A stretch of DNA of 64,000 bases, taken from contig NZ_CP131601.1 of assembly GCF_030685535.1 (NCBI RefSeq), positions 1,364,001 to 1,428,000 of the forward strand. The letters are read 5' to 3'. This document shows, one piece after another, positions 28,891-63,881 of the stretch (positions are counted from its first letter, which is position 1; each line of letters begins with the position of its first letter). Made by a program: the position numbers and the translations under genes. This DNA comes from Photobacterium leiognathi. GTDB taxonomy: Bacteria > Pseudomonadota > Gammaproteobacteria > Enterobacterales > Vibrionaceae. The notes under the pieces are model-generated. The model was not told the DNA's origin, ran no database searches, and saw nothing but the letters and a program-made list of their open reading frames with translations.

Positions 28891-30642
28891 ATGACCGATA
28901 TACTCGCTGACATCATTGCCTCATTTAGCGCTGCTGCAATTTCAGATGCATTTATCTACAGCATTTTCTTTCTATTAGTACTCTCTGGTGTACTCGCCTA
29001 TGTGGGGAGAGCACCTAGGTTTACCGCGAGCACTACAAATCTTCTTACCTCACTAGGAATATTGGGTACTTTTGCAGGTATTGTTGTTGGTTTGATGGAG
29101 TTTAATCCAACCGATATTGATGGCAGTATCGAATCTTTGCTTGCTGGTCTTAAAACAGCGTTTTTAACAAGCCTTGTCGGTATGGCGAGCTCAATCATAT
29201 ATAAAGCTATTCTTGGCACTATCCCGCAACGCGATAAAGAAGTAGTTAAAAATGTAGGACCGGAAGAGATTTTCTCAGTTATGTCTGCTCAACTTAATGC
29301 TTCACATGAATTGTTGTCGGCGATCAAGGGTGATGAAGACTCTTCCTTAACGTCGCAGATTAAGAATCTTCGAACAGATATCAACGATGGACAAAAATCA
29401 CTTAGCCGATACATGGAGAGAACAGCAGATAATAGAGACCAATTCCAAAAGATGTTATGGCAGAAGATGGATGAGTTTGGTGATCTGCTATCTAAATCAG
29501 CAACAGAGCAAGTTATTAATGCGCTTAAAGAAGTAATTATTGAGTTTAATGACAAACTAACTGAACAGTTTGGTGAAAATTTTAAGCGTTTAGATGAGTC
29601 TGTGAAGAAGCTAGTCGATTGGCAAGAAAACTATAAAAATCAACTTGAAGATATGGCAACCAAATATCAATTAGGTGTTGACGCTATTTCATTAACAGAA
29701 AAGTCAGTGGCAAGTATCAATGAGCGCACAGAGTCAATTCCAGCAACGATGGAAAAGCTTCACCAAGTGATGGAGTTAGGTCATGGTCAAGTAACGGAGT
29801 TAGAACATCGCTTAGAAGCATTCAAAGATCTTCGTGATAAAGCAGTAGAAGCAATGCCGCAAATTCGCGAGCAAATGGATAATACCATGTCTATAATTGG
29901 TGAATCAGTTAAAGCAGCATCGACACATTATGAGTCAATGCTGCAAGAGTCACAAAATATTATTGACAACTTTAGTTTAACTGCTGCTCAAAGTGTAGAA
30001 GTCATGAGAGTAAACCTAGAGGAAGGTGCGGTTAAAGTATCGCATGAGCTTGAAAATAGAGCAGTAGAGATCGGTAGTAGCCTCGCCGCAGCGTCAAATG
30101 ATATTACTGAAAACGTTACAACTGCGTCTGGTGCTCTTCAAAACAGCGCATCATATATAGCGAACAATTCAGAGCAGATCAAACAGCACTTAGAAGATGC
30201 AATGGTGGAACTAAATGGTCATTTACGTGTTCTTGTTGCAGACATTAAAGACGATGCACGAGAAACGGGTAATGTTCTAAAAGAAGCGAACCAAGAGTTG
30301 CTAAATAGTACGAAGGAAATTCAGTCAGAAACAACATCAGCGATCGCAAAACTTCATGATCGCTTAGAAACCACTTTAGAAGAAGTGTTCAAGGTGCAGG
30401 CTGAGGCGGTACGTAGAACATTTGATAGCTTAGAAGATCAGATCACTCAGTCAGTAGGTAGAACTGGCAGTGCGGTAGAGAAACAAGTGGAAGTACTTGA
30501 TCTGCAAATGCAGCAAGAAATCAACCGAACCATGAATGAAATGGGTGAAGCGCTTGCGACGATTACTCAACAATTTACCCGCGATTACCAAGCGTTAACA
30601 CGTGAAATGTCGAATGTTGTAAATAGTAAAACTGCAGTGTAA
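28891..30642 (+). CDS. zorA: ZorA-like MotA/ExbB-family stator protein, first copy
   Basis: 583 residues. Three N-terminal transmembrane helices (about 18-38, 52-70, 85-109) with the MotA/TolQ/ExbB core (SLGILGTFAGIVVGL and GLKTAFLTSLVGMASS). A cytoplasmic tail of about 470 residues is almost continuous coiled coil, the hallmark of ZorA, whose pentamer builds a long intracellular tail. With ZorB it should form a proton- or sodium-driven rotary complex in the inner membrane that senses phage entry. ZorB follows 2 bp after the stop. The family is clear; the Zorya type is discussed under the cluster. Confidence 0.87.
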   Translation: MTDILADIIASFSAAAISDAFIYSIFFLLVLSGVLAYVGRAPRFTASTTNLLTSLGILGTFAGIVVGLMEFNPTDIDGSIESLLAGLKTAFLTSLVGMASSIIYKAILGTIPQRDKEVVKNVGPEEIFSVMSAQLNASHELLSAIKGDEDSSLTSQIKNLRTDINDGQKSLSRYMERTADNRDQFQKMLWQKMDEFGDLLSKSATEQVINALKEVIIEFNDKLTEQFGENFKRLDESVKKLVDWQENYKNQLEDMATKYQLGVDAISLTEKSVASINERTESIPATMEKLHQVMELGHGQVTELEHRLEAFKDLRDKAVEAMPQIREQMDNTMSIIGESVKAASTHYESMLQESQNIIDNFSLTAAQSVEVMRVNLEEGAVKVSHELENRAVEIGSSLAAASNDITENVTTASGALQNSASYIANNSEQIKQHLEDAMVELNGHLRVLVADIKDDARETGNVLKEANQELLNSTKEIQSETTSAIAKLHDRLETTLEEVFKVQAEAVRRTFDSLEDQITQSVGRTGSAVEKQVEVLDLQMQQEINRTMNEMGEALATITQQFTRDYQALTREMSNVVNSKTAV

Positions 30643-30644
30643 CG

Positions 30645-31352
30645 ATGGAAAAGTTATTCGGAAAAAACAAATCTACGGGTGATAGCGGTGAACATTGGAT
30701 GTCAGTATCAGACTTGATGGCAGGCCTGATGATGGTGTTCTTGTTCATTTCTGTTGCGCTAATGCGTGAAGCTATGGTTGAGCGTGACAAAATAAAAGAA
30801 GTCGCAGAAACTTATCAGAAAACCCAGCAGGCCATCTATATTGCTCTGCTAGAAGAGTTTGCTAAAGATCTTGATACATGGGGAGCTGAAATTGATCGAG
30901 ATACATTGAGTGTCAACTTTACTGCGCCTGAAGTACTGTTCGGCAATGGTAAGGCGAACTTATCTGAGCAATTTCAAGTAATTTTGAATGATTTCTTTCC
31001 TCGTTACCTTGAAGTGCTAGAACAATACAAACCGATTATTCAAGAGATCAAAATTGAAGGGCATACTTCTAGTCGTTGGAACCAAGATTCTAGTGATTAC
31101 GAGGCTTACTTCAATAATATGCGTTTATCACAGTCACGGACGCGTGCAGTACTTGGCTATGTAATGAAGCTTGATGATGTTCGTGCACAACATTATGGCT
31201 GGGTAAAAAATAACGTTGCGGCAGTAGGTTATTCTTCATCTAAAGCAGTTGTTAAAGATGGTGTAGAAGACGAAAAAAGCTCTCGTCGAGTGTCTTTTCG
31301 TGTAATCACTAACGCTGAAGAGCAGATATTGAAGATCCTGGGGGCGGAATGA
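30645..31352 (+). CDS. zorB: ZorB-like MotB/OmpA-domain stator protein, first copy
   Basis: 235 residues. One transmembrane helix (about 24-42) is preceded by SVSDLM; Asp23 corresponds to the ion-carrying Asp of MotB. A periplasmic OmpA-like peptidoglycan-binding domain (about 95-225) contains IEGHTSS and the SxSRTRAVLGYV segment. Dimers sit inside a ZorA pentamer and anchor it to the cell wall. It overlaps the HNH gene by 4 bp (ATGA). Confidence 0.88.
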   Translation: MEKLFGKNKSTGDSGEHWMSVSDLMAGLMMVFLFISVALMREAMVERDKIKEVAETYQKTQQAIYIALLEEFAKDLDTWGAEIDRDTLSVNFTAPEVLFGNGKANLSEQFQVILNDFFPRYLEVLEQYKPIIQEIKIEGHTSSRWNQDSSDYEAYFNNMRLSQSRTRAVLGYVMKLDDVRAQHYGWVKNNVAAVGYSSSKAVVKDGVEDEKSSRRVSFRVITNAEEQILKILGAE

Positions 31353-32434
31353 AACTAACGCTTAATCTTCATTCCCTTATGCGTGCGATTGAAATTATGG
31401 AGCCAGAGAGAAGTGGTAAATTCACTCTGGAACTTCACGAGACTCACATCGATAAAATAACGGCAGAACTAGAGAAAGGTAAGGATGTAGAGCTTAAGGA
31501 TGTAGAGATAGAATCAGGTCTTTTAAGTTATAAAGGACGTCATGTCACACTCTATATAAAAGCGAATGGAACCAGTGCTCGTTTTCATGTTTCTGACTGT
31601 TCAACATTGCAAGGTATGAGGGCAAGTGGAAGATTTGAGCGTTACGTGGTCACAAACAATACTTCAGGAGAATTCCTAGTTGATACCTCCTATGGAGAGA
31701 AAAAGGCGAGGCTAAAGGTATGTCAAAACTGTCTACGTAAGCTTAATTATAAAGGTTGTAATACGACAACAAACATAACGTCGATAGTTCAGAGCTTTAA
31801 CATGGCGGAATTTTTTGCTACCTATAGTTCTTTCTTTCCGCACATGCCGTCGCGACGAGCTGAGACCGCTGAGAGTGGCTACAGTGATGATTGGTCAAAA
31901 ATATCCTCCCACTATCGAGTAGAAAAAAACTTTGAGTGTGAAGAATGTAAAGTGAACATGCGTTCTAACCGTGCGCTTCTGCATGTTCATCATGTTAATG
32001 GTGTTAAATCAGATAACAGGCCGTCAAACCTTCGTGCACTGTGCATCGACTGCCACAGCAAACAACCCATGCATGAGCATATGGCACTCAGCCACAGAGA
32101 GCGTCAGACAATAAATGATCTGCGTAAACAGCAAGGTTTACTTGATGACCTCGGTGAGTGGCAAGAGTTGTTTGATTATTCAGATCCAGGTGTACATGGC
32201 GTACTGCATGCTTGTCGACAAGCGTATTTGAAACTCCCTGAAATTAACTTTTTTGTTGAAGACAGTTTCGGAGGGTTAGCCGCACGGCTTGAACTTGCGT
32301 GGCCGAAGCACAAATTTGGTGTCGCAATATCAATGAATGATATTGAAGATGCAAACAGTAATGGTTGGCAGGTCGTGGGTATTAATGACTTTTTGGAAAA
32401 TTACAAATCACAAGCTTATAACTTAAGGCACTAA
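31349..32434 (+). CDS. HNH endonuclease, ZorE-like by position
   Basis: 361 residues. An HNH nuclease domain covers about 190-245: Cys197/Cys200 and Cys232/Cys235 for zinc, with HVHHVNG (212-218) and NLRALCIDCH as the catalytic part. A second Cys cluster (CQNC at 125-128, Cys137) may hold another zinc. The C-terminal 80 residues (AWPKHKFGVAI, NGWQVVG) recall a reduced restriction-endonuclease-like fold. In type II Zorya, ZorA-ZorB are followed by the HNH effector ZorE, and this gene takes that place with coupled translation. It would degrade or nick phage DNA on activation by the motor. Homology to ZorE itself is inferred from domain and order. Confidence 0.78.
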   Translation: MKLTLNLHSLMRAIEIMEPERSGKFTLELHETHIDKITAELEKGKDVELKDVEIESGLLSYKGRHVTLYIKANGTSARFHVSDCSTLQGMRASGRFERYVVTNNTSGEFLVDTSYGEKKARLKVCQNCLRKLNYKGCNTTTNITSIVQSFNMAEFFATYSSFFPHMPSRRAETAESGYSDDWSKISSHYRVEKNFECEECKVNMRSNRALLHVHHVNGVKSDNRPSNLRALCIDCHSKQPMHEHMALSHRERQTINDLRKQQGLLDDLGEWQELFDYSDPGVHGVLHACRQAYLKLPEINFFVEDSFGGLAARLELAWPKHKFGVAISMNDIEDANSNGWQVVGINDFLENYKSQAYNLRH

Positions 32435-32438
32435 ATAA

Positions 32439-32777
32439 ATGCAGGTTAAGCTAGAAGAGATAATTGAGAGAATCATTTCAGTCAACCATGCTTGGAAGCT
32501 CTCAAGAGAAGAGTTTGGCAATGAGTTCGCTGCAACTCAATCTCTCAGACACACAAAATCGTCATTACAAGCAACATTGCTCCGGGAATTTCCTCATGAC
32601 GCCTATCTTTTAAAAGCGACAGATAGTGATACTCAAGACGAAGATATGTATAGCGTTCGGTTGGAGTCGCCAATCCTTATCAACGGATTCGAAAGATATG
32701 ATGCGGAACACCTTCCTGTTCGTGTAGCTGATGAAATTTTAACGAAACAAGAAATTACTAAATTCCTAAAAAAATAG
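32439..32777 (+). CDS. Small unknown protein inside the Zorya-like cluster
   Basis: 112 residues, soluble, mixed charge, no motif recognised. It lies 4 bp after the HNH gene and directly before the second zorA, whose start region abuts its stop (TAG-GTG). Its position between the two stator units makes it a candidate linker, adaptor or immunity/control factor. Function unknown. Confidence 0.65.
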   Translation: MQVKLEEIIERIISVNHAWKLSREEFGNEFAATQSLRHTKSSLQATLLREFPHDAYLLKATDSDTQDEDMYSVRLESPILINGFERYDAEHLPVRVADEILTKQEITKFLKK

Positions 32778-32789
32778 GTGCGATTTTAT

Positions 32790-35030
32790 ATGTACGACCA
32801 CTTGGCTTTCATTTCTGGTGACTGGGTTACAGACGCTATTATTTTAACGACTGCAGCGGTTTTCTTGTTCTTCTCTTTCCGAGAGTTAGTGGCCGTTATT
32901 AAAACAAAAATTCAACTCAAAGGGCTTGGCAAGATTAAATTAAAAGCTTCGTCGAACATTCTTGATTCGAAAAGCTTGAAAAAAGATCAGCTGGTATGGG
33001 TGACCGATCATCTTGTGTATACACCGACTCAAGATGGTATCGCCGTGGAAACAAAAGGTGATTTATGGTTAACCAAATCACCAATTTCACAGATGCTTCC
33101 AACAATCGATTCTTCTCGTTACAAGCTGATCCCCGCATTATTAACCAGCATCGGTATTACTGGCACATTCCTTGGTATAACGCTAGGTCTAAGCGAATTT
33201 ACTATGGCTGGGGACTCGAAAGCGCTATTGGCTTCTGCTGCTGAACTGCTAGAGGGGATGAAAACTGCGTTTTATACATCACTTGCAGGTTTAGGTACCT
33301 CTGCTCTATTTATGGTGTGGATGAAAATATCTTCAAGCGTATTAGCAAAAGCTCAGAAACAGCTAATCAGCACACTCTCTTCTCAATACTTTGAAGCGAG
33401 CCCGATCTATTACCTGAAAAACATGTCCAACGAGGGGCAAAAAGAAGTCCTGGAAGCCCAGCTTCGCACTGCGTCGGCAGTGGAGTTAATGGATGAGAAA
33501 ATGGAGGCGACAAGTCATGTTCTTGCGCAGCTTGGGACTTCATTTAATGGTGAAGTTATTGCAAAGCAGATATCGACAGCATTAGTTGAGTCCATCGAAA
33601 CAAGTATGTCTCCAATGCTTAGAGATATTAAGCAAGAGCTTGGCGCACTCAAAGATATTAAAGAACAATCACAGAAAGAGTTAGTTGAGCTTCTGATCCA
33701 AGAAATGAAATCAGAGCTAATCGCCCCAGTTGCTGAAGAGCTAAGTAAAACCAGTGCGGCAGTAACAAGCAGCAACGAGGTTACCTCACAACTGAATAGT
33801 AATATTGAACGAGTAGTGACCAGTACCTCGGAAACAGTTGATACGATCAATGAGTTCCAAAAAGAGACGATGCTTAAACTGCAATCTTTTGCTGAGTCAC
33901 TTAAGGGAATACTAGCCAGTTTCAAAGAGGATACACAGGGTGCAATGACCTCAATAGCTTCAGAAGTTAACACTATGCTGAATAATGCATCGCAAGGTAT
34001 GGATTCTCAACGAGTAGCGTTTGAACAAAGTGCAAACAAAGCTGCGAGTGCATTTGAAGGCATGAAAAATTCGCTAGAAGTAGCACTCGATGAACGCCAA
34101 AGTGCAGAAAAAGTTCTCTTTGAAAATGTAACAGGCCGCATTAACGGTTTGCTATCAGAAATCTCGACTTCATTCGAGAATCAAACATCGGTGTTGGCGC
34201 AAACGGGTGAAACTGCATCTAACTTGATGAATCAGGCTCAAAAAGACTTTGAAGTATCGGTCCAAATACGTCGAGATGAAGAGTCTCACCTGTTTGGAGA
34301 AATGGAAGGCAGAATCAATGGGTTAGTTCAAAACTCACAAGTCATTTTCCAAGAGCAGGCGGAAGCAATCAAACTTGTTGGTGATGAAGCAAGTAGTGTT
34401 ATGCAGTCGGCAAAATCTGAACTTCAGCAGGGTCTTGGTGACATTGATTCAAAAGTAAAATCAATGTCGGCAACCGTTCAATCAGAACTAGAAACGTTCC
34501 GAGAACAATACCAACAAAACCTAACTTCTTACTTTGAACAGCAGAATAACCTACTAGAAGGTAGCCTCAGCAAGCAACGTGATGGCTTAAATGATGTGGT
34601 AGACAACTTCCGCAAAGTATTTGAAAGTGAATACCAAGCACGCCATAACTTATTACAAGAGTTAACGGCTCAGTATCAAAAGCTTGAAGCATCAGCTCAG
34701 ACGGTGGAACGTGTAGCTAAAGCTATTGGTTTGAACGAAGCATCTAAAATGGCTGAACTTCAAGACGCTGCTCATACAATGAGCCGAGAAATTGCGTTGC
34801 TGAAAAAAGAGTATGCAAAAGCATCGGCAACATTCACTGATATCACTGAGAATTTACCAAAAGCGATGGATGAATATTTCACTCGCGCAAATGAAAGCTT
34901 TGAAACATTCTTTAATGACTTCGACCAATCGGCAAGTAGTATTCACAATAAATTGTCTCAGGCTGCTGGCTACCTAATTAACTCACAAGTATTACGCCGT
35001 GAGTTCGAAGCTGACGAGGTGAAAGCATAA
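32790..35030 (+). CDS. zorA: ZorA-like stator protein, second copy with longer tail
   Basis: 746 residues from ATG 32790, with AGGTG nine nucleotides upstream; the GTG at 32778, touching the previous stop, is an alternative. Transmembrane helices lie at about 12-30, 107-127 and 152-176 with the MotA/ExbB signature (SIGITGTFLGITLGL, GMKTAFYTSLAGLGTS). The cytoplasmic coiled-coil tail is about 560 residues, clearly longer than that of the first ZorA. The insertion between helices 1 and 2 (about 75 residues) is also longer. The two ZorA proteins are divergent, not a recent duplication. It overlaps zorB2 by 1 bp (TAATG). Confidence 0.87.
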   Translation: MYDHLAFISGDWVTDAIILTTAAVFLFFSFRELVAVIKTKIQLKGLGKIKLKASSNILDSKSLKKDQLVWVTDHLVYTPTQDGIAVETKGDLWLTKSPISQMLPTIDSSRYKLIPALLTSIGITGTFLGITLGLSEFTMAGDSKALLASAAELLEGMKTAFYTSLAGLGTSALFMVWMKISSSVLAKAQKQLISTLSSQYFEASPIYYLKNMSNEGQKEVLEAQLRTASAVELMDEKMEATSHVLAQLGTSFNGEVIAKQISTALVESIETSMSPMLRDIKQELGALKDIKEQSQKELVELLIQEMKSELIAPVAEELSKTSAAVTSSNEVTSQLNSNIERVVTSTSETVDTINEFQKETMLKLQSFAESLKGILASFKEDTQGAMTSIASEVNTMLNNASQGMDSQRVAFEQSANKAASAFEGMKNSLEVALDERQSAEKVLFENVTGRINGLLSEISTSFENQTSVLAQTGETASNLMNQAQKDFEVSVQIRRDEESHLFGEMEGRINGLVQNSQVIFQEQAEAIKLVGDEASSVMQSAKSELQQGLGDIDSKVKSMSATVQSELETFREQYQQNLTSYFEQQNNLLEGSLSKQRDGLNDVVDNFRKVFESEYQARHNLLQELTAQYQKLEASAQTVERVAKAIGLNEASKMAELQDAAHTMSREIALLKKEYAKASATFTDITENLPKAMDEYFTRANESFETFFNDFDQSASSIHNKLSQAAGYLINSQVLRREFEADEVKA

Positions 35031-35689
35031 TGCGTGGTTTAGGAGCAGCGCCCAAAACGGCGGATGTTGAGGAATCAGGCGTTTGGCTTTCTGTTGGGGA
35101 CTTAATGTCTGTGCTTCTTATGATATTTGCATTATTGCTTATCAGTGCATTAGTACAAATATCTGAAGTATATGAAGAGAGTCAAAATACTCGAGTTGTC
35201 ATTATTAAAGGTATCAATGATGCGTTAAATGCAGCAGGCATTGAGGTTAAAGCCGACTCTGATACGGGAGATATCTCTATTACGGATTCGATTCTCTTTG
35301 ACTTGGATGACTATAGGTTAAAACCTTCGGGTAAAGAGTTTTTGAACAAATTCATACCAATCTATTCGGATGTGGTATTTCAATCGAAAGCCACAGCAGA
35401 TGAAGTCAGTCGAATTGTTATTGAGGGGCACTCGAGCTCTGAAGGATCTTTCAATCGAAATATGGAACTTAGCGTCTTACGAGCGAATAGTGTTACTGCT
35501 TTTGTAAACTCAATGCGCTTTGAGAATAAGCATCGTTTCTTTGACAAAGTGGTAATTTCAGGAAGAGGCCCTATTGAGGCAGATCAGTCTATAGCGCAAG
35601 CGTCTGATAGAAAGGTAAAGTTTCGTTTCCAGTTTAAAGATGATGAGTTCTTAGGAAACTTCTCAGAGGTAGAGAAAGTTGAAAAATAG
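35030..35689 (+). CDS. zorB: ZorB-like stator protein, second copy
   Basis: 219 residues. LSVGDLM with Asp24 precedes the single transmembrane helix (about 25-45); the OmpA-like domain (about 80-210) has IEGHSSSEGS and a LSVLRANSVTAFV segment. Same architecture as the first ZorB, with low visible identity. It should pair with the preceding longer ZorA. It overlaps the next gene by 11 bp. Confidence 0.88.
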   Translation: MRGLGAAPKTADVEESGVWLSVGDLMSVLLMIFALLLISALVQISEVYEESQNTRVVIIKGINDALNAAGIEVKADSDTGDISITDSILFDLDDYRLKPSGKEFLNKFIPIYSDVVFQSKATADEVSRIVIEGHSSSEGSFNRNMELSVLRANSVTAFVNSMRFENKHRFFDKVVISGRGPIEADQSIAQASDRKVKFRFQFKDDEFLGNFSEVEKVEK

Positions 35690-38024
35690 CGTTATTTCAT
35701 TTGCTCAACCATCCTTACCATGCAAAGTGGGTATTGAAAAAATTTCATTTGATGACTTTTTTGATATGGGGAAAGGCGCAACTGTCCTTCCTAGTTTTCC
35801 ACCCAAAACTTTATTGCAGATCGTTAACTTAGTGGATGCTGGTCGTGCGGATGAAATCTCAATTTTCGAGTGGTTGGAGGTTACAGAAAATACAGACCAA
35901 TGGACTGAACTAACGGATGATCAAACCTTAGATGCCTGCCGTGCAATATGGATGGCAATTTGTTGTACCCCCGTTTTGGGGGATATCGCGTTCTTTAAAG
36001 TCGCATTAGCAATTGATGGTAAGCCTAGCAGCATAGTCCCTCAATTATTGGAGACGATGAGCATTGTGCGCACGGTAAATGGGCTTGATGAATTATGCTC
36101 AGAAAAAATTGACTGGTTATTATCTCTTCAAGCGCAACAGTATCGTGAGCTGGCTAATGTCTGCTGGAATGCAAACCTAACGCCTTATTATAAAACGAAG
36201 TGGTTGCGTCTGCCGCTAGCGAATACCTACCTGACTCAAATACAGCAGGAAGTATGCTCGGTTATTGATCCTCAATCATACGATGAGAAAAGCGATAATT
36301 GGTTGTATGAGTGTTTTCTCTCTTTACAAACAACCAAAGAGAGAATCGCTTTTTGTGAACGCTTTATTCTGCGTTTTTCAAAAAATGCATATTCCTATCT
36401 ATGTGGAAAAACGATTGAAGAGCGCTGTTTGCCATTTAATGAAGATTGCTACTGGTATCTGTTAAGTGAATCAGCTAAGGAAAAACTTAAAAATCAATTC
36501 GGTTTATCAAACTATTATGAGTTGCATGGTATATCAAGACTACTTTCTCAAGACAACACCGAGGATGCGTTAGGATTTGATGAGCAGAAGCGGCGCCAAA
36601 TTCACAGTCGGACAATGTTTTGGTCTAACTATACTAAGCATTTTAAACGTATTAGAGCGCTACTCCCTGACTCTAGTTTCAATTATATCGCACAGTTTAA
36701 TGATGGCTTACCACCGTTCGTTGATAAACTTGCACCATCGGAAAGTCAGGATAGTGAAGTGTATATCTTTGAGTTGAGTAAACTCATCGTAGTCGAGTTT
36801 TTAAGAGGCGGGTTGAGTGAGACACGTTTTTTCAATGCCACGGATTGGAATCTAAAGCGCTTGTTTGATAGTAGAGAGCTTTCAATTGATGACATTCGCA
36901 GTCTGTCGCAGCAAGAAGTACATGACCACTTAGTGGGATGGCAGTACTTCTGTGAGAAGTTGCTGCGAATGAAGTTTAAACTCACTCCTACAACAGGTAA
37001 GCCTTATTTTAAGGGGTTACCTCCAAGTGTGAACAGTTATTGTGAAACTAAGGGAATATTGAGCGCACTAGACCCGAAAATGATGACTGAGCGAAAGATT
37101 GCACTTGCTCCTTGGGTAGAACAGTTCTGGAATGTTGAGTTTAAAACAGGTAAATACGGCGAGTTTAGTGATACTCAAAAACAAAGCAGTGTATACCTGA
37201 AGAAAGCACTAATGGCGAAGCAGTTAGGAAGTCATGATGAGTATGAAATGTTTATCAGTAAAGCTGCCGAGCATGGTAATCCTGAGGCGATGTGGCAGTT
37301 AGGTAGAACTATGTTACTTGGTGCAAGAAGCACTTCAGCAATGAGAAAGCAGGGAGAGGATTGGGTCGGAAAAGCTGCCAGTCTCGCACACCAGGAAGCG
37401 AAAGAAACGGCAATCAGATTTCGCATTCCTTTTGTAGAGTATGTACAGCCAAAAGCTGAAGAGATAATTTTGCATGAAAAGAAAAGTGAGCTTGAATCTT
37501 GTCTTGATTCCTTAGCGGCTTCACGATACTGGGACCAGCAACAAGGATTGAAACTTGCGAAGAAATTGTTATCGAATATCGATTATAAACCAGTTCTACT
37601 TCACGCATTGGTAGCACTACTCTCGAAGTCACAAAGAATTGAAATTCGCTTCGAGATTACGTCTATGGTACAGAAAGAGGGTGATGTTAATGCATTGATG
37701 AATACTGCTCTCGAGTTAAGTAATGGTTCGGTAATAGAGCAAATTAAAGCTATTGAGTTATATGAGCATTTGCATGAAAGAAACGTAGATGTGAAAGAAA
37801 AAGTGAACGCTTTGGTTAAGTTTGCAGATGATTACCAGCGTAGATCCGTTCTAGTAGTTGGACTGAGAACGCTGTCTAATTGGGGCGATTTAGATGCTAC
37901 TTACCAGTTGGCAAAAATAATGCGAGTAAGTGAATCAGCAGAAGAACGACAACTTGGTTTAACGTTGATGAATTTTGCCGCTAGTCGAGGGCATGATAAA
38001 GCTAAAGAAAGTCTCAAGCTTTAG
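35679..38024 (+). CDS. EH-signature protein with Sel1-like repeats, ZorC-like
   Basis: 781 residues from TTG 35679, preceded by AGAGG at 9 nt and overlapping zorB2. The middle (about 300-430) matches the EH_Signature domain found in ZorC: FWSNYTKHFKRIRALLP, IVVEFLRGG with Glu373, and HDHLVGWQYF. The C-terminal part (about 500-570 and 730-780) shows Sel1/TPR-like helices (AAEHGNPEAMWQLGRTMLLG, AASRGHDKAKES). In type I Zorya, ZorC binds DNA and works with the nuclease-helicase ZorD, but no ZorD is encoded nearby. The Sel1 fusion and the missing partner make this variant unusual. Last gene of the cluster. Confidence 0.75.
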   Translation: MKNSVISFAQPSLPCKVGIEKISFDDFFDMGKGATVLPSFPPKTLLQIVNLVDAGRADEISIFEWLEVTENTDQWTELTDDQTLDACRAIWMAICCTPVLGDIAFFKVALAIDGKPSSIVPQLLETMSIVRTVNGLDELCSEKIDWLLSLQAQQYRELANVCWNANLTPYYKTKWLRLPLANTYLTQIQQEVCSVIDPQSYDEKSDNWLYECFLSLQTTKERIAFCERFILRFSKNAYSYLCGKTIEERCLPFNEDCYWYLLSESAKEKLKNQFGLSNYYELHGISRLLSQDNTEDALGFDEQKRRQIHSRTMFWSNYTKHFKRIRALLPDSSFNYIAQFNDGLPPFVDKLAPSESQDSEVYIFELSKLIVVEFLRGGLSETRFFNATDWNLKRLFDSRELSIDDIRSLSQQEVHDHLVGWQYFCEKLLRMKFKLTPTTGKPYFKGLPPSVNSYCETKGILSALDPKMMTERKIALAPWVEQFWNVEFKTGKYGEFSDTQKQSSVYLKKALMAKQLGSHDEYEMFISKAAEHGNPEAMWQLGRTMLLGARSTSAMRKQGEDWVGKAASLAHQEAKETAIRFRIPFVEYVQPKAEEIILHEKKSELESCLDSLAASRYWDQQQGLKLAKKLLSNIDYKPVLLHALVALLSKSQRIEIRFEITSMVQKEGDVNALMNTALELSNGSVIEQIKAIELYEHLHERNVDVKEKVNALVKFADDYQRRSVLVVGLRTLSNWGDLDATYQLAKIMRVSESAEERQLGLTLMNFAASRGHDKAKESLKL

Positions 38025-38033
38025 GAATAGTTG

Positions 38034-38062
38034 GCGCATCTCGTAAGAGATGTGCTCTGTTT
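38034..38062 (+). terminator. Possible terminator of the Zorya-like cluster
   Basis: Stem GCGCATCTC / GAGATGTGC (one G-U pair) with a GTAA loop, 10 bp past the stop; the T tract that follows (TCTGTTTAT) is weak. Confidence 0.55.
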
Positions 38063-38182
38063 ATAGTGAGAATAAATCAAGAAATATGAAGATTGTTGCG
38101 CTTTAATAAGCGTAAGTCATGTAATATCAATTCATTCAGTATATTAGCGTTAGAATCATCCCAACTCATCTCAGATTACTCT

Positions 38183-39307: not shown

Positions 39308-39339
39308 TGGTCAGAATTTGTATGCAAACGGAGCAGCGA

Positions 39340-42300: not shown

Positions 42301-42888
42301 AACGCGCTGCGGGACATGCCGATTTTTACCGATTTGCCGGATGCTGTCACTGGGGTCAGCCAAGTATGGGGTGACCATGACAGCGCCGATGATTTCTTAG
42401 AAGCGTTTGATCAGCTGGTGGATGTGTCGGTCAACCAACAAGAAGCGCTGGATATCATTATCAACCGCCCTAGGGATTTAACTCGCAAAGGGTTGATTGA
42501 GCTTCAAGAATGGTTTGATGCACAAAACTACAATGATGCTACCTTGCGCCATGCGTGGAACGTCGCCAAAAACCAAGATATTGCTGCCAAACTGATTGGT
42601 CATATTCGCCGCGCCTCGATTGGCGATGCGCTCATGCCATTTGAACAACGAGTTGATCTCGCATTGGCACGTATTCTCAAAGCCAATGATTGGAATGATG
42701 AGCAAGTCAATTGGTTAGAACGTCTAGCTAGCTCAATTAAAGAGAAAGTGGTACTGGATGATGACACCTTTAAAACCGATAACTACAAGCGCAAAGGCGG
42801 AAAACGTAAGCTTATGAACGTATTTAATGATGAATTAGACATCATACTCGCTGAGTTCAACGAATATATGTGGGATGAGCGCGCCTAG
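39340..42888 (+). pseudogene. hsdR: Type I restriction subunit HsdR, interrupted by TGA at a Trp codon
   Basis: About 1182 codons from ATG 39340 (GGAG six nucleotides upstream; ATG 39307 also possible). An N-terminal DUF4145-like helical domain and a coiled coil precede TGA 40189-40191. The frame then continues open through 25 codons to a GTG at 40267 and on to the stop at 42888. The stop falls in RNMAIAE-stop-PTGKDETG, where HsdR proteins read AEWPT, so TGG probably became TGA. The nuclease motif (YADYVLFVG and VIEAKK) and all helicase motifs (ATGTGKTRTA, DEAH, LTATP, GRATR) lie after the stop. Without read-through no active translocase-nuclease is made. hsdM and hsdS are intact. Confidence 0.85.
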
Positions 42889-51671: not shown

Positions 51672-51723
51672 TGTTCGATTTCAATTCTCGACCTTTCCAT
51701 ATCATTTGCTTTTTGGGGTAACA

Positions 51724-54700
51724 ATGAAAACATTTCGCCATTGCATTGCAGATATTTTGTCATCACGCGATTTAGAACGTGTGAGTGGTGCGCCTTTATA
51801 TAGTTATAAATTGACGGATAGCGAATATTCATTATTGCAAACGTCACTCACAGATAGTTTACGTAAAAATCATATCGAGAGTTATATCCCTAAGGGTAGG
51901 AGTTCTGAGTGGGCTGGGGCATTTGTTATGTATGCCGCAGAATGGTGGCGAAAGGAATTCAATGGTGGACACTGGAGTTGGGAACCGATTTTTAAATCGT
52001 TACTCGTTAAGGATTCAGACCTTGCCGCAAGTCAACGAAATAGATTGATTGAAGCTGGTTTTCGCTTTTGGCGCCGTCCTGTACTGTGTAATGGTCAGGG
52101 GAGGATGTTCCTTGGTACCGTTGCTGTAGAGGGGGGCTTGCCGCTGCAATTGATCACTGATCCAAACAACAAGCTTTCCCATTATTTCGAGCAAGTGATT
52201 AAAGACTTTGGCAAGTATGCACTCTCCAAACCAAATGCAGTTGCTATTGCTCATGCTCATGATCACTGTATCGTACCGTCATTTCGTACCGATGCGGTGT
52301 ATTCTGTTGTCGGAAAAATTGCAGAAACGATTTTTCAGTTAACGGACCAATATGGTTTGGATGAGCAGCGTGACCCTTTACGTTTTCTGGATGCAGTGGC
52401 TCCGGACTGGCTAGCTGCATTACCACTAAATGTTGATCATGATGTGGCGAAAGGTTTGTTAAATCGTGCATTGGGTCAGGCGATTGCTGTCCAACGCCGC
52501 TTGCCTCATTCATTACGTCTTATCCGGAGATTAACACAAACTTATAATCCTCACGCTTTTGTTGATGATGATTTCAAGAAAGAGGATCAGTTGTGGACGT
52601 ACCAATTGTCTATTTCGCTGCGACCGCGGTTGAGTGCTCAGTATATTCAACAGCTCTTTGGTATGCAGGTTTTACCTGAAAGGTTTAGCTTGTTTGCAAT
52701 GGGGAAAAAACCGTTGTTGTTAGCAAAAGCGTTCAAGCCCAAAAACAACACAGAACGCTATTTGTTGGATGTTATGACTTGTGATTTACCCGATGATTGG
52801 TTTGATTGTGAAATCCAACTAATGGCAAGAGGCGATGAAGGACAGTCATGGTATGCCCCATTGTTGGGAGGCAGTGCTTTAGATGCGGATGAGCCGTGGG
52901 TTTTTACCGATAATAATGGTGAGTGGACATTTGTTGGGGCAGGAGATGTGAACTGCGAATCTAGCAGTGCTGTGATTACGTTGTCTTCTGAGCTTGCAGA
53001 TGCCTCTCTGTCTTCCGTTTCTTGTGTAATGGGAACAGTATCCACACAGTACGCACAATCTTTGTATCTATTCAATGAGACGGGGCAATACAGCTTTGGT
53101 AACTATGTAGTGCAACTCGGTGAGACTAGTGAGCCGAATAAGGAATATGTATGGCAAGGCGAGGAAGTGCCTTATCAGACTTTGCCTACTAAGTGTTTTA
53201 TCGGCAAACCAAACTTGTTTTCTCTTTCTTCACAAGGAATACAACAACGGATACCAGTAGACCGTTTGCGCTGGTATGACGGTACAAAACAGCAATGGAG
53301 TTCGTTGGAAACTTTGCCATTTGGGCAAAGTGAAGTGGCCTATATTGAGGATGGGCGAGTTAAAAAGCGTTTTCGATTGGCCAGTTTGCCTAATGATATC
53401 GAGATTGAATTTTTTCCAGGTAGCCAGATCAATCGTGGTCAAATTGTTATTTCATCATCACGTCCGCCGATGGTTGCTTTGGCACAATCTGCGGTCGGCC
53501 TGCTTGATTACCAAGTCTCGCAAGCATGTGATGCAGTGACGATTGATCTGTTTTGTGCTCAGGAGCAACCGCCAGCTGTACTGGACATTAATCTTTGGTG
53601 GCAGGAAAAGCCGAAAGCCATCTCGCTGACATTGCCATTTCCAAGCAAAGGCATTTGTTTGTTGGATGCCAACCAACAATTAGTACCGTGCCATAGCGAA
53701 TTGCTGGTGGATAAAATCAATGGCTATGAGTTGTATGGCTATGGTGTTGAGGGTGAAATAGAGCTGCAATTTTTGCTAAAAGCTCAAGATGTTCGCGGTG
53801 CATTCAGTCGAAGTGCATATTTCAGTGCGGTATTGCCTTCTGTTGACGTATTAGCTTCTGGCTTATCTTTGTCCAGTTTCCGTACGGAAATTCAGGCATT
53901 GTTTGCCCTTTCATCGAGTTTGGACGCGAAAGTCCAACTGACGGTGTCTCATCATGGGCAGGCATTGTACACGTGTGCTCTAGCAGCATATGAGTGTGCG
54001 CTAATTCCTGAACGAGAAATCAACTGTGTGGCGCTAGCTCAGGCGATAGATACCAAAGGTACACCAGAACTCTACACTATCCCCTTAGATAGACCGGATC
54101 AACAACCGTTAGCACTAATGTCTGCTTCACTGACAGATGACGTGCCGATGCAGTGGTTATTTCCGCAAGAGGAAATAGACGCAGGTGCGTGGCTGGTTTA
54201 TAGCGATAATCCGCAGTTTGGACTGCGCCCGCTAATGTGGAGTAAAGACTTAGAGTGTTTACCAGCGCCAAGGAACGGTTTTGAAATGGCAGCAGGCATC
54301 GGTCGCCGTGCCGACAGATTAGAAGCATTTGCCTCGGTGGCATTAGATATGGCATACGATTTTACCCGTCCTGAATGGAAATATGTGCGTACATTACTGG
54401 CGTTTAACCATGTTCCATTAACCACGTTTGACCTGTGGCGTGGTGTACTACGGCAACCTGAATTCATGTTGGCACTGCTGCTGAATGCTAACAAGAAAGA
54501 AATTGATCAGGTTTGGAAAATGGATAAGCAGTTCCCGCTACTCTGGTATGCATTGAAAGTGACTTCTGCCGTAAAAGTGGTAGAGGCGTTCTATCAATAT
54601 TTACTGGAGCGGTTGGGCGAAGATATGTCAGATGCCGCTCAATTGCGCATTCAGAAGAAGTTGGCTGAGCTGGTGTCTTATTTCCCAGGACTGGAGCCAC

Positions 54701-55101
54701 TTGCCAAGCTATTGCAATTTAAGCTTGGCATGGTTGAGCAAAAACCGTCAGTGGAACCCGCGGCATATGTGCAGCACTTGTTCGATTGTCGAAATGCGCT
54801 TTCTCAGCGCCAGTCTGACGTATCGTGGCTAACGATTTTCGCCGATCATATTTTTCAGTCTGTGATGAAAAATATTAACTCGCAATTGGTTCAACTTTGT
54901 TTAACGACCAAGCATGGATTCAAAAATAATGTGATGAATGCGCCAGTGTTACTCGCGCTGGCAACGAGTAATCAAGCTGAGTTGACGATGACGCCAGAAG
55001 TGGTGCATGCAATGCATGAGTATCGTCGATTTGACCCTGAGTATTTTGACGACAGTTTTGCATTAACCCAGAAAATGATCATTGGCTTGCTGACCATTTA
55101 A
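51724..55101 (+). CDS. druH: Druantia type III protein DruH
   Basis: 1125 residues from ATG 51724, preceded by GGGG. There is no known domain, as is usual for DruH; long stretches are beta-rich in the middle (about 330-760) and helical at the C-terminus. The identification rests on length, lack of domains and position directly before a helicase of about 2065 aa with DUF1998, the two-gene layout of Druantia type III. Its role in defence is unknown even in the founding systems. 16 bp separate it from druE. Confidence 0.78.
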   Translation: MKTFRHCIADILSSRDLERVSGAPLYSYKLTDSEYSLLQTSLTDSLRKNHIESYIPKGRSSEWAGAFVMYAAEWWRKEFNGGHWSWEPIFKSLLVKDSDLAASQRNRLIEAGFRFWRRPVLCNGQGRMFLGTVAVEGGLPLQLITDPNNKLSHYFEQVIKDFGKYALSKPNAVAIAHAHDHCIVPSFRTDAVYSVVGKIAETIFQLTDQYGLDEQRDPLRFLDAVAPDWLAALPLNVDHDVAKGLLNRALGQAIAVQRRLPHSLRLIRRLTQTYNPHAFVDDDFKKEDQLWTYQLSISLRPRLSAQYIQQLFGMQVLPERFSLFAMGKKPLLLAKAFKPKNNTERYLLDVMTCDLPDDWFDCEIQLMARGDEGQSWYAPLLGGSALDADEPWVFTDNNGEWTFVGAGDVNCESSSAVITLSSELADASLSSVSCVMGTVSTQYAQSLYLFNETGQYSFGNYVVQLGETSEPNKEYVWQGEEVPYQTLPTKCFIGKPNLFSLSSQGIQQRIPVDRLRWYDGTKQQWSSLETLPFGQSEVAYIEDGRVKKRFRLASLPNDIEIEFFPGSQINRGQIVISSSRPPMVALAQSAVGLLDYQVSQACDAVTIDLFCAQEQPPAVLDINLWWQEKPKAISLTLPFPSKGICLLDANQQLVPCHSELLVDKINGYELYGYGVEGEIELQFLLKAQDVRGAFSRSAYFSAVLPSVDVLASGLSLSSFRTEIQALFALSSSLDAKVQLTVSHHGQALYTCALAAYECALIPEREINCVALAQAIDTKGTPELYTIPLDRPDQQPLALMSASLTDDVPMQWLFPQEEIDAGAWLVYSDNPQFGLRPLMWSKDLECLPAPRNGFEMAAGIGRRADRLEAFASVALDMAYDFTRPEWKYVRTLLAFNHVPLTTFDLWRGVLRQPEFMLALLLNANKKEIDQVWKMDKQFPLLWYALKVTSAVKVVEAFYQYLLERLGEDMSDAAQLRIQKKLAELVSYFPGLEPLAKLLQFKLGMVEQKPSVEPAAYVQHLFDCRNALSQRQSDVSWLTIFADHIFQSVMKNINSQLVQLCLTTKHGFKNNVMNAPVLLALATSNQAELTMTPEVVHAMHEYRRFDPEYFDDSFALTQKMIIGLLTI

Positions 55102-55117: not shown

Positions 55118-58100
55118 GTGGAATATTTTGAATCTATTATTGAACAGCTGACCAAACGTGCTGCTCGAGCAACATTAGGACAGTTTGGTTTACGCTCAAA
55201 GCCTTTACGTGAGTTTCTATGGCAAGCCTTTTCTAAAGCACCTGGACAGGAAGGTGCATTTTTGGGTGATCCGGTGTTTGAGGCGACATTTGGTTGGAAG
55301 CCTCATACGGAAACCATGCAGGCATTGTCGGGGAAATTGTTGTCTTCCCGTGTTGTGCATGCGATGGCGAATCCGCCCAAAGCGTTGAAAGAAGATTACC
55401 AGTTTGAGTCTTCATGGTTTCCCTATGCCCATCAGCATGAAGCGTGGCAGCATTTGTTGCAGGACGAACCTCGCTCCGTCATCGTGAGTAGTGGCATCGG
55501 TTCGGGTAAAACCGAATGTTTCCTTGTGCCTATTTTGAGTGATATTGCCGCACGTAATAGCAAGGCGGAAGGCGTTGAAGCCCTCTTTTTGTATCCGCTG
55601 AATGCCTTGATCAATAGCCAGCGAGATCGTTTAGCGGCTTGGACCCATGAGTTGGGTTCAGATGTGAAATTCTGTTTGTATAACGGTGAAACGAAAGAGC
55701 AGATACCGGTCGCAAAGCAAAAAGCAGAGCCGAATCAGCAGCTTTCTCGTAAGGCTTTGCGTGATGATCCTGCACAAATTTTGGTGACCAATGCCACCAT
55801 GTTGGAATACATGCTTGTTCGTCAAAAGGATGACCCAATCTTACGTAAATCGCAGGGTAAGTTACGTTGGATCGTCTTGGATGAAGCGCACACCTACATT
55901 GGTTCACAAGCTGCAGAGCTTGCTTTATTGCTGCGCCGCGTGATGCATGGTTTTGGTGTTACGCCGGATCAAGTAAGGTTTGTGGCGACATCGGCCACAA
56001 TTGGTGGGGAAGATTCTGATAATGATCTGAAAGCATTTTTAGCTGATGTAGCAGGTGTCGATATTACGCAAGTACACTTAGTGAAAGGGCATCGTGAAAT
56101 CACTGGGCTGGCTGAATTAACGACGCCGCAAGCAATGAATTTGCAGCAAGTTAAATCGATTGAAGATGAAGTAATGCGCTATCAGGCGCTCGAGTCGATT
56201 GTGCCACTGCGTGTATTGCGTCAGCATTTGAGCTCTGATGATAACCGAATGTCACTGTCGCAAATTGGCAAGTTATTGTCGGCAACCGATGAGCCACTGG
56301 AAGAAAAAACCGTTTTGCAGTGGCTTGATGTGTGTGCATCAACCAAAGGCAGTGACGGGCAGGCATTTATTCCATTTCGTTTACATTTGTTTCATCGGGT
56401 TGCCAGTGGTTTATGGACATGCGCTAATTCAAGCTGTAAAGCGAAGGTGGGCACTGCATTGGATGCGTTGGATTGGCGCTTCGGGATGGTATATATGTCA
56501 CGCCGTGAACGTTGTGGTTGTGGCTCACCCGTATTTGAAATGACCAGTTGTAATGGGTGTGGTACGAGTCTACTACTTGCAGATGAAAGTATCGACAAAG
56601 AAACTGGAGAAAGTGTGCTTAGCCTGACTAAGCCTGATTCGAGTATTGATGACTTTTCACTCGATATTGAGGTGGATGACTCGGATGCCTTATTAGAGCT
56701 CGATGAAGAGGAATCGGAAACCCATGCCCGTCTGTGCATGATGGCTGAACATGATCGTGAGGAAACGGGTCAGTATTGGTTGAATAATGAAGGCGTGTTA
56801 AAGCCGTCTACCCACAAAGGTGCATTCCAAGTTCACCGCGTGGAAGGGTACAGTAAGTCAGACGGTACAGGGGTGGCGTTGCGTTGTCCTTGTTGCCAGC
56901 ATACAAAAATTCAGAACTATGATTTCTATCGCCATTTCCGTAATGGTGCGCCGTTTATGCTGTCAACGGTGATCCCAACGCTGTTGGAGTTTTGTCATGA
57001 TGGCAAAAAAGAACAGCTTAAAGGGCCTTGGCATGGTCGTCGAATGATCACGTTTACGGATAGCCGTCAGGGAACTGCCCGCTTTGCCGCAAAATCACAG
57101 CAAGATGCCGAGCGCCAATTTTTGCGTGCTGCATTGTTTCATTTAGTCGCAGATAGAACGTTGAAAAGTGGCGCTTTGACACCGGAGCAAGAAGCGGATT
57201 TGAAAAAATATAAATCACGCTTGGCAATGTTCATCGAAGACGGTGACGATGACATGGTTGAAATCATGGAAGAAAAAATTGCAGCACTGTGTGGGGGCGG
57301 TGATGTTTCGATTCCATGGTCAGATGTTGAACATGAGCTCGCTAAAGAGAAAGAGCTGCAATATTGGATCAAGGATTCCTATCAGCGATTTGATGACAAA
57401 ATGACCATGGTGAAGGATCCTGTCCTGCTTACCAGACTCTTGTTATTGCGGGAGTTTAATAGTCGCCCTAAACGTCAGAATACGCTAGAAACCTTGGGGT
57501 TGATCCGCATGGAGTACCCATCCATCAAAGATAAGGGCAATACTGCTCCTACTGAATGGGTCGCATTATTTGATGATCGGGACAGAGCGCAATCAGAGTG
57601 GGTTAATTTCTTAACGTTGTGTTTAAACTTCCACGTGCGTGCCAATAAGGCCATTTCGTTAACCGAAGAGCAGCAGCGCTGGATTGGTGCGAAGTTCAGC
57701 CCGGGATTGATTTCTGCGCCGGATGACGACAGTCCGTTTCGTAATGTTCAAAGTTGGCCTCAGGTCAGAAAAGGCTCGGTACAGCCTCGGTTGGTTAGAC
57801 TACTTGCAACGGCATTTAATCTGGACATTACCGATACTCAAGATAAAACGCAGCTCAATATTATCCTGCAAGACGCTTGGAATGTGCTGCAACGCTATGT
57901 GCTGGCAGGGAGTGGAGATGGCTACCGCCTGGAGCTAGAGCATCAGGTAAGTTTTAGTTTGTTGGCTGAAAAATGGCAGTGCCCGCATACGCAAAAAATT
58001 ATCGATACGCCACTAGCTAAAATTACGCCGTACCTGAACGTAAAAGGTGAGCGGGATGAACAAGTCTGCCGCTTATTAGAAGCGCCAGTTTATCCGTATC

Positions 58101-61100
58101 CTTATGGTCGTCAGATTGAGGACGGATCACCCGTTGCGCTTACCGTTGTGAGGGACTGGCAAGAACAGTCTGACATCGCTAACTTGCGTAAAGAAAATGC
58201 GTGGTCAGACATTTCGGACCGTATTATCGAACGTACGCCATATTTCCGTGTGGCTGAGCATTCTGCACAATTACCTGCTCCTTTACTGCGTGATTATGAA
58301 GATAAGTTCAAAAAAGGTGCCATTAATGTGCTGAGTTGTTCGACAACCATGGAAATGGGGGTGGATATTGGTGGTATCTCTGTGGTGGCAATGAATAATG
58401 CGCCGCCTAACCCTGCAAACTATTTGCAGCGTGCGGGTCGTGCAGGTCGTCGCGGAGAAACGAAATCTGTCGCATTAACTTTGTGTAAAAATACACCGCA
58501 TGGCGAGCATATTTTCAGCCACACGCGGTGGGCATTTGACACGCCTATTCATGTACCGAATGTATCGCTATCCAGCGAATACATTGTAAGGCGTCATATT
58601 AATGCATTGCTATTGTCGGTATTCCTACGTCAGAAAAATATCAGCGACAACTCTCTGCGTTTGAGCTGTGGCAACTTCTTCCTGTCTTTGCACGAGCAGT
58701 GTGCATCACAGGCCGAATTGTTTATTAACTGGTGCGTGAAAGATGCGCTTGACCATATGAGTGACGGATTAGAAACTTTGCTTCGCCGAACAAGCTTAGA
58801 AGCAACGACGAAGATGAGTCTAGTGCAGGAATCAGCACAGCAGATGAAGACTATTTTGTGCAGTTGGCAGAAAGAACATCAGTTGCTGTGTGAGCAGAGT
58901 GAAGCGGTAAAAGCTGATACTAACCGCCTTTCTATTGCACAGGCGGCGGTGGAAACGCAAATTCAGCGTTTAGAAGGGGAATACCTACTGTCAGAATTGG
59001 CACGAAAAGGGTTCTTACCGGGCTACGGTTTCCCGACCGATGTGGTGTCGCTAAATAATGATAATGCTGAGTCCATCAATCGCAGAAAAGCATTGATTCA
59101 AGCTGCAAAAGAAGCCAAATCTGCGAAAAATGATACGTTAGAGCACCGTATTGATAACCTGTACAGTTCGCGTGATTACCCATCCCGAGATTTATCTGTC
59201 GCGATTCGTGATTACGCTCCGGGCAGTGAAGTCGTGCTGGATGGTCGTGTGTATCAATCGGCAGGCGTGATCTTAAATTGGCATAGTCCTGCCTCTGCGG
59301 ATCAGGTGAGTGAAATTCAATCTTTGAAGTGGGCGTGGCGTTGTCAGCAGTGTGGTGCAAGTGGAACAGAGCGACAAATGCCGAAGGAGTGCAGTTGCTG
59401 TGAGGCTCAGTTAGCGTCAGACAGTTACCACCGTTTCATTGAGCCAGGTAGTTTTGCGGTCGATATTCGTCATAAACCACATAATGATATTTCTCGCTTG
59501 GTGCATGTGCCTTTCCAAGATCCTTGGGTAACGGTAGAGCAAGAGCAGTGGGAAGAAATGAGCGTAAACCCAAGTGCTTTGTTTCGTTCTAGCCATAACG
59601 GTCATGTGTATTACCACAGTGCAGGGTTGTCCAATACGGGATATGCACTCTGCTTAGAGTGTGGCCGCATGGAGGCTATGCCAGATTCGCAGGATGTGAC
59701 GCCTTATCAAGTTTTGGAAAATCACACCCGTTTGCGTGGTGGTAAAGGGGAAATCGAGCGTGACAGTGAGCATTTCTGTGGCGGTAATGAACGTGATTTT
59801 GCTATTAAAGGCCCGATTAAGTTAGGTCATAGTACGCGTACGGATGTGTTTGAGTTATTGCTTTTCCATGCAGATGGCTCGGTTCTGAACAATCGTACGA
59901 TTGCCCGTTCTATTTCTGTACTGTTACGAAATGAGTTGGCTGCGAAATTAGGAATCAATAGCGATGAGATTGGCTGCACCACAAAGCCAGTGAATTATCA
60001 GGGTCATGAAGCGCAGGCAATTGTGCTTTATGATTGTGCGGCGGGTGGTGCGGGCTTTGCGATAAAAACGCCTGAGTTTTTGATCGCGTTATTGCAAGCT
60101 GCGAAGAAGAAAGCCGTGGATTGTCACTGTGATAAAGCGTGCCATCGTTGCTTAGTGGACTACTCAACGCAGCATGCTCTGGAATTGCTAAATCGTTGGA
60201 AAGTGATCGAGTTTCTCGATAATGATTTTTTTGCACGCTTATCGCTGCCAGATGAATTTAAGTTATTTGAGCGTGATAACCGAAGAGAATTACGTCCCTT
60301 GATGACAGCCATCGAGCAATCATTGGCGCATACGATAGATCCTGAGTTATGTCTGTATATTCAGCGAGATACTCTAGGTGATTTAAGTAAATGGCTGCTT
60401 GTTGATGCAATGTATAGTTGGGCAAGAGAGCAGACGGTGAAGGTGGTTTTACTTAGCTCTGAGTCATCGGCTTTAACGACGCCTGAACAGATAAGTTTGT
60501 CATGGCTTGCTAATCACCCGAATATCGAACTACTTCAGCGAGACGACGCAATAAAATGTGATATGACGTTATGTGCTGAAATTCTAAGTGGCAAGAGCGC
60601 TCAATCGTGGGGTTACCATAATGAATGTGACAATCAGTTAGTGACAGGTTTCGGAAATAGACCGACATTGTCAGCGATTAAGCTGGATGCACTGACGCAC
60701 CCAGAGAGAATCGGAACCGTGAGTATTCATCATGAGCTGAATAATTCGGTGAAAGCATTCGGGTCATTATTTTGGAGTAAAGTGCTTAAGGCATCTGATT
60801 TGTTGTTAAAAAAGATGCAGACACATCAGATCGTAGAGGTTGAGTACTGTGACCGTTATTTGGCTGCACCTTTACCATTTAGTTTATGTTTAAGTGCTGT
60901 AGGGGCGTTGTTGGGTCACTATAAGGATTGTAAGGCTTCGATTATCACGAGTAGTTTGAAAGATGGGGGATATTTACCAGAATCAGTTCAAGATAATTGG
61001 CCGTCTGATGACACAAGATCAGCAGTCGTAAACCGCTGTATTGATAAAACACAGCTGGATATAACATTTGAGGTAAGGCCTAAGTACCGTTTACCACATG

Positions 61101-63593: not shown

Positions 63594-63636
63594 AGTATTT
63601 ATGTAAAAGAAGTGAAGTGTATGCAAAAGCTAATTT

Positions 63637-63668
63637 AACCGCATTGTATTAGGCATGCGGTTTTTTTT
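63637..63668 (+). terminator. Terminator of the xis-int operon
   Basis: Stem AACCGCAT / ATGCGGTT with a 10-nt loop followed by a run of T. The T run merges with the first arm-site box. Confidence 0.88.
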
Positions 63669-63730: not shown

Positions 63731-63840
63731 ATCGATTATTTTGGGATTTTTAAATCGAAGATAGTGAAAAGAGTAATGAATATAAATTCACATTAATTGT
63801 TATTGATAAAGCAGTGAATTAAGGTTTATTTGATAGAGAT

Positions 63841-63875: not shown

Positions 63876-63881
63876 GTAATT

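Follow-up and report, generated by a model that had tools for sequence, protein, structure and literature searches.

The window analysed here is a stretch of 64,000 nucleotides from Photobacterium leiognathi (contig NZ_CP131601.1, positions 1,364,001 to 1,428,000), and the element under study is a cluster of seven genes related to the Zorya defence systems, located at positions 28891–38024 on the forward strand. The seven open reading frames (ORFs) are tightly packed, with junctions of +2, −4, +4, +12, −1 and −11 bp, just as an earlier note on this DNA had described them (one run in which no junction exceeds 12 bp in either direction), and none of them contains a visible stop or frameshift. 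When all seven proteins were searched against Zorya profiles, six were named by PADLOC and one, the 112-residue product of the fourth gene, here called sm112, was left unmatched. These matches agree with the layout proposed in the earlier note, in which a type II-like A-B-HNH unit is coupled to a second A-B unit with a ZorC-like protein. Judged from the sequence, the front half (zorA1-zorB1-zorE) is a type II Zorya, and the back half (sm112-zorA2-zorB2-zorC) is a type I-like unit without ZorD. The cluster is not a simple duplication, as the earlier note had also held, since the two ZorA/ZorB pairs best match different profile families. The coordinates are collected in Table 1.

Table 1. Genes of the seven-gene Zorya cluster and linked features in the window.
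Feature	Position	Strand	Description	Evidence
zorA1, type II ZorA	28891..30642	+	583 aa; MotA-like membrane part and long tail	PADLOC PDLC00640, 961 bits over 1-582
zorB1, type II ZorB	30645..31352	+	235 aa; transmembrane aspartate D23, OmpA domain	PADLOC PDLC00641, 344 bits; OmpA 34 bits
zorE, HNH nuclease	31349..32434	+	361 aa; C-terminal ELAWP region	PADLOC PDLC00645, 546 bits
sm112 (name given here)	32439..32777	+	112 aa; first gene of back unit	no profile match
zorA2, type I-like ZorA	32790..35030	+	746 aa (750 aa if GTG 32778 is the start)	PADLOC PDLC00597, 483 bits
zorB2, type I-like ZorB	35030..35689	+	219 aa; transmembrane aspartate D24, OmpA domain	PADLOC PDLC00609, 237 bits; OmpA 36 bits
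zorC	35679..38024	+	781 aa, TTG start; EH-signature part and helical-repeat (Sel1-like) C-terminal tail	PADLOC PDLC00618, 214 bits; PF15611, 37 bits
terminator-like hairpin	38033..38056	+	9 bp past zorC stop; 10-pair stem, 4-nt loop, weak T run	
druH, Druantia III	51706..55101	+	linked neighbour, outside operon	PADLOC PDLC00047, 1997 bits
druE, Druantia III	55118..61315	+	linked neighbour, outside operon	PADLOC PDLC00037, 2380 bits

The front half resembles Zorya type II in having the same three genes in the same order, with ZorA1 and ZorB1 in the type II profile families, an intact aspartate in ZorB and an intact HNH motif in ZorE; its ZorE is 36% identical to the annotated E. coli ZorE. It would fit type II if it stood alone. 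However, a type II operon carries one ZorA-ZorB pair, whereas here two pairs lie in one run and the front half shares its operon with a second motor unit. The NCBIfam scores of ZorA1 (347 bits against an equivalog cut-off of 700 for the ZorA2 model), ZorB1 (271 against 400 for type II ZorB) and ZorE (298 against 600) are all under the cut-offs, and the type II proteins here are therefore divergent members. The back half has its ZorA, ZorB and EH-signature ZorC in the type I families, and the predicted structure of ZorC aligns with the solved ZorC (8r68) over residues 42–442. It differs from type I in that sm112 leads the unit, the composite ZorC has a Sel1-like tail, and ZorD is missing: among the matches listed, no ZorD was found in the seven cluster genes, the two genes after them or ten further island genes, the rest of the genome not having been searched for it. 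With type III (ZorA-ZorB-ZorF-ZorG) the cluster has in common the ZorA/ZorB core only, and no PADLOC match to ZorF or ZorG was found in it.

The earlier note had considered that one stator pair might belong to a known non-defence MotAB/ExbBD family, but both ZorA proteins score below the MotA_ExbB Pfam cut-off of 22.9 bits (20.3 for ZorA1 and 13.8 for ZorA2). Seven places of the MotA_ExbB family were found in the genome, six of them above the cut-off and ZorA1 the sole one below, while the type II ZorA profile, run over the whole genome, matches just zorA1 and zorA2. The transmembrane aspartate is kept in 24 of 24 aligned front-half loci for ZorB1 (D23) and in 18 of 18 aligned back-half loci for ZorB2 (D24), the ZorA transmembrane motifs GTFxGI and TAFxTS are present in both ZorA1 and ZorA2, and the C-terminal ELAWP motif of ZorE is conserved. 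According to PMC11890865, defence in types I and II depends on the aspartate of ZorB, on binding to peptidoglycan and on the tail of ZorA, and ZorE is a nickase recruited by ZorAB. As far as conserved positions can tell, both halves retain the residues needed by a working ion-driven stator, and the residues of the HNH nuclease are retained as well.

The gene order was then sought in 394 genomes of the order, the genome of the window included, and in a scan of named genomes. The sm112 gene was found in 9 of the 394 genomes, and the EH part of the window-type ZorC subfamily in the same nine. Matches to the ZorC alignment occur in 84 genomes, but in 75 of these they are all short, have E-values no better than 1e-6 and fall almost entirely within the Sel1 repeats. 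Among the eight other sm112 loci of the order, six have the arrangement A-B-E-sm112-A-B-C and two are lone sm112-A-B-C units (S. gaetbuli and genome G110, where ZorA is split into two ORFs). The named-genome scan gave 13 loci, four of them already counted; the other nine are seven composites (Grimontia, V. lentus, V. jasicida, two further Vibrio sp., Photobacterium profundum and V. inusitatus) and two lone units (Shewanella sp. 10N.286.48.A6 and the cyanobacterium Dulcicalothrix desertica, with a short ZorA ORF). A Nostoc plasmid holds the fifth lone unit, so that two of the five are cyanobacterial.

In total, 14 composite loci were found, that of the window included, from Vibrio, Photobacterium, Aliivibrio, Grimontia, Neiella and probably Moritella. 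All seven genes are readable in 12 of them; the Grimontia locus is cut inside ZorA2 by a contig end, and that of V. lentus inside ZorC, with its ZorA1 in two ORFs. The 12 complete composites have 72 junctions, of which 70 overlap or leave at most 22 bp. The two wide ones are a gap of 161 bp that precedes sm112 in V. inusitatus and one of 2525 bp, occupied by an IS66 transposase gene, that precedes zorC in G065. The gene order is thus conserved in several genera. The earlier note had allowed that the two halves might occur independently and adjoin only in this strain; the first part is correct, since the halves do occur alone as ten plain triplets and five lone back units, and the second is not, since the adjacency recurs beyond this strain and in more than one family. 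Upstream of the Neiella composite lie an ORF resembling the C-terminal part of ZorE (L023:5410-6048) and a short sm112-like fragment with a stop (G044:C33:239363-239527), perhaps the remains of another copy of the cluster.

ZorE was found in 20 of the 394 genomes. The seven proteins at 46–100% identity, that of the window included, are all in composites, and the next one, at 45%, belongs to a lone triplet. At 35–45% identity there are ten plain A-B-E triplets, in genomes without an sm112 match; the remaining three matches are a C-terminal fragment (G155) and weak matches in G088 and G273.

The sm112 protein has no match in PADLOC, Pfam or NCBIfam, and 203 homologous proteins were found. Eight alignment columns, including N16, W19, K20, K40, E90 and H91, are invariant across 66 sequences. 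The AlphaFold2 model (pLDDT 92, pTM 0.84) consists of two long helices followed by a β-rich part; no match to it, and no known enzyme fold, was found among the solved structures of the PDB. The earlier note had listed this protein as a 112-residue unknown of the run; it belongs to the back half and is not a linker between the halves, as it also heads the A-B-C unit where that unit stands alone. The tail of the ZorC model aligns with helical-repeat proteins and is matched by Sel1 chains at the sequence level. The length of ZorC ranges from 584 to 798 aa among the 12 complete composites and the S. gaetbuli locus taken together, and from 473 to 564 aa among the four other lone units and a second V. 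inusitatus unit described below. We consider the tail that goes with ZorE a candidate for contact with ZorE.

The history of the two halves was examined through their divergence. Over the 12 complete composites, among which there are near-copies, the pairwise divergences of front and back half are correlated with a Mantel r of 0.77, a value reached in 0 of 9999 permutations. The back-half tree places the composites together with S. gaetbuli on one side of a branch with a support of 84, or 99 without Moritella. S. gaetbuli has no front half; because it sits inside the composite group, it most simply would have lost it. In the front-half trees, 13 of the 14 composites group together (bootstrap 100; SH-aLRT 95), with Moritella deepest and not resolved from the very long-branched lone triplet of G297; the data do not reject a single clade uniting all 14 (p-AU 0.37). 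The simplest reading, not proven, is that the halves were joined once and have probably been co-inherited since. In V. inusitatus, the first cluster (zorC end at L116:227) is followed by two small genes and then by a second cluster, L116:1887-11537, with the order sm112-ZorA-ZorB-ZorC-ZorA-ZorB-321aa-ZorB and a type I restriction-modification (RM) operon next to it. The extra genes encode a ZorA (101 bits) and a ZorB (273 bits), both of type I profile families, a 321-aa protein with no Pfam or PADLOC match, and a last type I ZorB (252 bits). Therefore, the sm112-A-B-C unit has been set beside another motor at least twice.

The lone back units bear on the question of the effector. G110, S. gaetbuli and Shewanella sp. 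10N.286.48.A6 each have one ZorA match in the whole genome, and Dulcicalothrix has two further weak ones elsewhere. Among the PADLOC matches listed for 14 genes near the lone units, which are part of their neighbours (five in S. gaetbuli, three in Shewanella sp. 10N.286.48.A6 and two each in G110, Dulcicalothrix and Nostoc), there is no ZorD. In the Nostoc plasmid (L094:13903-18306), genes for a DpdE/DrmD-like helicase and for a DrmMI-like methylase come after the lone unit.

A complete Druantia III lies 13.7 kb downstream of the Zorya operon in the window. Relatives of DruH and DruE, sought by phmmer with the proteins of the window (a very divergent DruH could escape), are present in the flanks of all eight composites with flanks read (the window and seven others), and DruH is at most about 25 kb away from the cluster. 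The Moritella DruE gene is on the strand of zorA1, and its end is some 150 bp ahead of that gene. In five more composites DruH alone was sought, and it was found on the same contig in four, about 9–16 kb from zorC, and was absent from the V. lentus genome. DruH is thus on the same contig in 12 of the 13 composites examined, Grimontia being outside the sample. In contrast, no DruH relative was seen at any of the eight lone type II loci whose flanks could be read (at most about 28 kb per side, less at contig ends); the other two of the ten, on contigs of only 7.5 and 15.5 kb, were excluded. The difference has a Fisher P of 4.4e-5, to be read with the composites being relatives rather than independent observations. 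S. gaetbuli, with its back half only, also has DruH and DruE relatives; the sequence read around the units of G110 and Shewanella sp. 10N.286.48.A6 showed neither, and no DruH was found in Dulcicalothrix. Beside the lone type II Zorya of G023 (L152:2509-17180), a DrmD-like helicase, a type IIG/DrmMI-like gene and a DruE-family helicase stand in a row without a DruH relative.

This linkage resembles the synergy of Druantia III and Zorya II in E. coli described in the passages of PMC13192584 on that subject, according to which ZorE can act together with Druantia III against one phage even without ZorAB, and type I and IV RM systems are enriched around Druantia III. The window likewise has Druantia III in its island, together with a type I RM system (R 1452, M 719 and S 343 bits) and a McrC-like gene adjoining an AAA gene. 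Most Druantia-linked ZorE proteins are said in those passages to have a C-terminal nuclease-like region; the ZorE of the window has a C-terminal ELAWP region, not shown to be the same. The passages on synergy differ from our case in dealing with plain Zorya II. The island context is therefore a known association, as far as those Zorya II-Druantia III passages go, and they do not name a second motor unit; ZorC is named nowhere in the main text of the paper.

As for the other neighbours, a gene for a CARF/Csx1-like (Cas_NE0113) protein (38093-39307) separates the Zorya operon from the type I RM genes, and relatives of it directly follow zorC in loci L018, L032 and L035, with an hsdR relative adjoining in L018 and L032. 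HsdR of the window is in two ORFs of 294 and 873 aa (39307-42888), and in a single ORF of about 1180 aa in L028, L029, L031, L033 and L036. Three consecutive ORFs of 455, 337 and 1060 aa (22953-28558), of which the third matches Phage_integrase just under the cut-off and the others have no Pfam match, may form a recombinase set that marks the island's left edge. A tyrosine integrase of 417 aa adjoining a tRNA-Val gene (63882-63958, − strand) at 62044-63958 likely marks the right edge and the attachment site. The hairpin after zorC is a possible operon end; it is a consensus match only, and 6 such sites were found in the region where 7.9 are expected by chance.

Taken together, the sequence shows two complete, non-identical motors, one recognised nuclease and one conserved small protein in one tight gene run, and its halves are homologous to modules that live alone elsewhere and diverge together in one set of loci. 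This suggests that two separate defence modules have merged into one system. We propose, as a reading with about an even chance of being right, that the cluster is a composite Zorya defence operon in which a type II unit is joined to an sm112-A-B-C unit, with two separate motors, ZorE as their shared nuclease and Druantia III cooperating. The seven genes would be on one transcript, and the two A-B pairs would form two separate 5:2 motors anchored to peptidoglycan, started by disturbance of the envelope at phage entry and each gated by its own envelope cue. The type II rod (ZorA1) would recruit ZorE as in the known type II system. The second rod (ZorA2) would act through ZorC, which would hold the invading DNA, with sm112 as a helper. 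ZorE, the only recognised nuclease of the operon, would then act as the shared effector on the same or neighbouring DNA, and the nearby Druantia III may cooperate and also use ZorE.

Several points weigh against this proposal. The NCBIfam equivalog cut-offs of the matched Zorya models are missed. The Sel1-like tail, the composite state and the Druantia linkage share one group of relatives, so the tests are not independent, and the unsettled place of Moritella in the front-half trees makes two joinings possible. Besides, sm112 and the window-type ZorC could hold an unrecognised activity, and the sm112-A-B-C unit can apparently persist where a type II unit is missing. Because lone back units persist without ZorE beside them, the role of ZorE as the nuclease of the back unit is weakened; the G110 copy, however, may be dead, given its split ZorA.

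For the same reason, it is a serious rival explanation, and quite a possible one, that two independent Zorya systems merely share a promoter and an integration site, the back half being complete with its own unrecognised effector (sm112 or ZorC) and the island being inherited as a block. Both halves exist alone, just one ZorA match occurs in each of three genomes where the back half stands by itself, and type I RM, McrBC and Druantia III often travel along, so that co-inheritance alone does not amount to joint function. However, the junction between ZorE and sm112 stays between −70 and +22 bp in 11 of the 12 complete loci despite reordered flanking systems: in Moritella, Druantia III is upstream and the flanking sequence that was read shows no type I RM relative, and in Neiella type I RM is limited to a distant system upstream. 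The confinement of every ZorE of the order of at least 46% identity to composites speaks in the same direction. It appears rather unlikely that the back half is a regulator or safety device that keeps ZorE in check, by way of sm112, ZorC and the second motor, unless two envelope signals arrive together; the small size and strong conservation of sm112, for which no known enzyme fold was found among solved structures, are in keeping with such a role, but a protein that heads lone units without ZorE beside them is not a dedicated ZorE inhibitor. Least probable of all are hybrid 5:2 stators with altered gating, in which the second pair joins the first to serve one shared nuclease. In favour of them, the pairs are likely co-expressed from one operon and have MotA/MotB-like core motifs in common; against them, the pairs belong to different profile families and each kind has a single A-B pair where it stands alone.

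How the composite should be classified is a related matter. Relatives of the back half are already represented in the PADLOC profiles, the Nostoc ZorC reaching 587 bits against that for ZorC, and the back-half proteins have therefore previously been filed under type I. In the searchable literature, neither the composite nor sm112 was found described, nor was the ZorD-less unit as a type; the supplement of PMC11890865 and Hu et al. 2025 are outside that scope, and prior notice there is possible. The suggestion of the earlier note that this is a new Zorya type is defensible in the sense of a composite variant. We also entertain, only tentatively, that sm112-ZorA-ZorB-ZorC may be a Zorya type of its own, without ZorD and with a new small fourth component, an add-on motor coupled to a type II unit and, in V. 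inusitatus, to a type I A-B pair; with Druantia III it might form a three-system complex in which several sensors feed one nickase, ZorE.

The composite operon bears on how Zorya motors signal infection to nucleases, and on the possibility that one effector is served by two motors. With its two non-identical motors, its single recognised nuclease and its small conserved protein, it is a natural case in which the motor-effector question becomes testable. The lone sm112-A-B-C units raise a second question: how does a Zorya motor defend without a known nuclease beside it? Finally, the strong linkage to Druantia III offers a natural setting for the synergy between Zorya II and Druantia III, which has so far been studied in E. 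coli.

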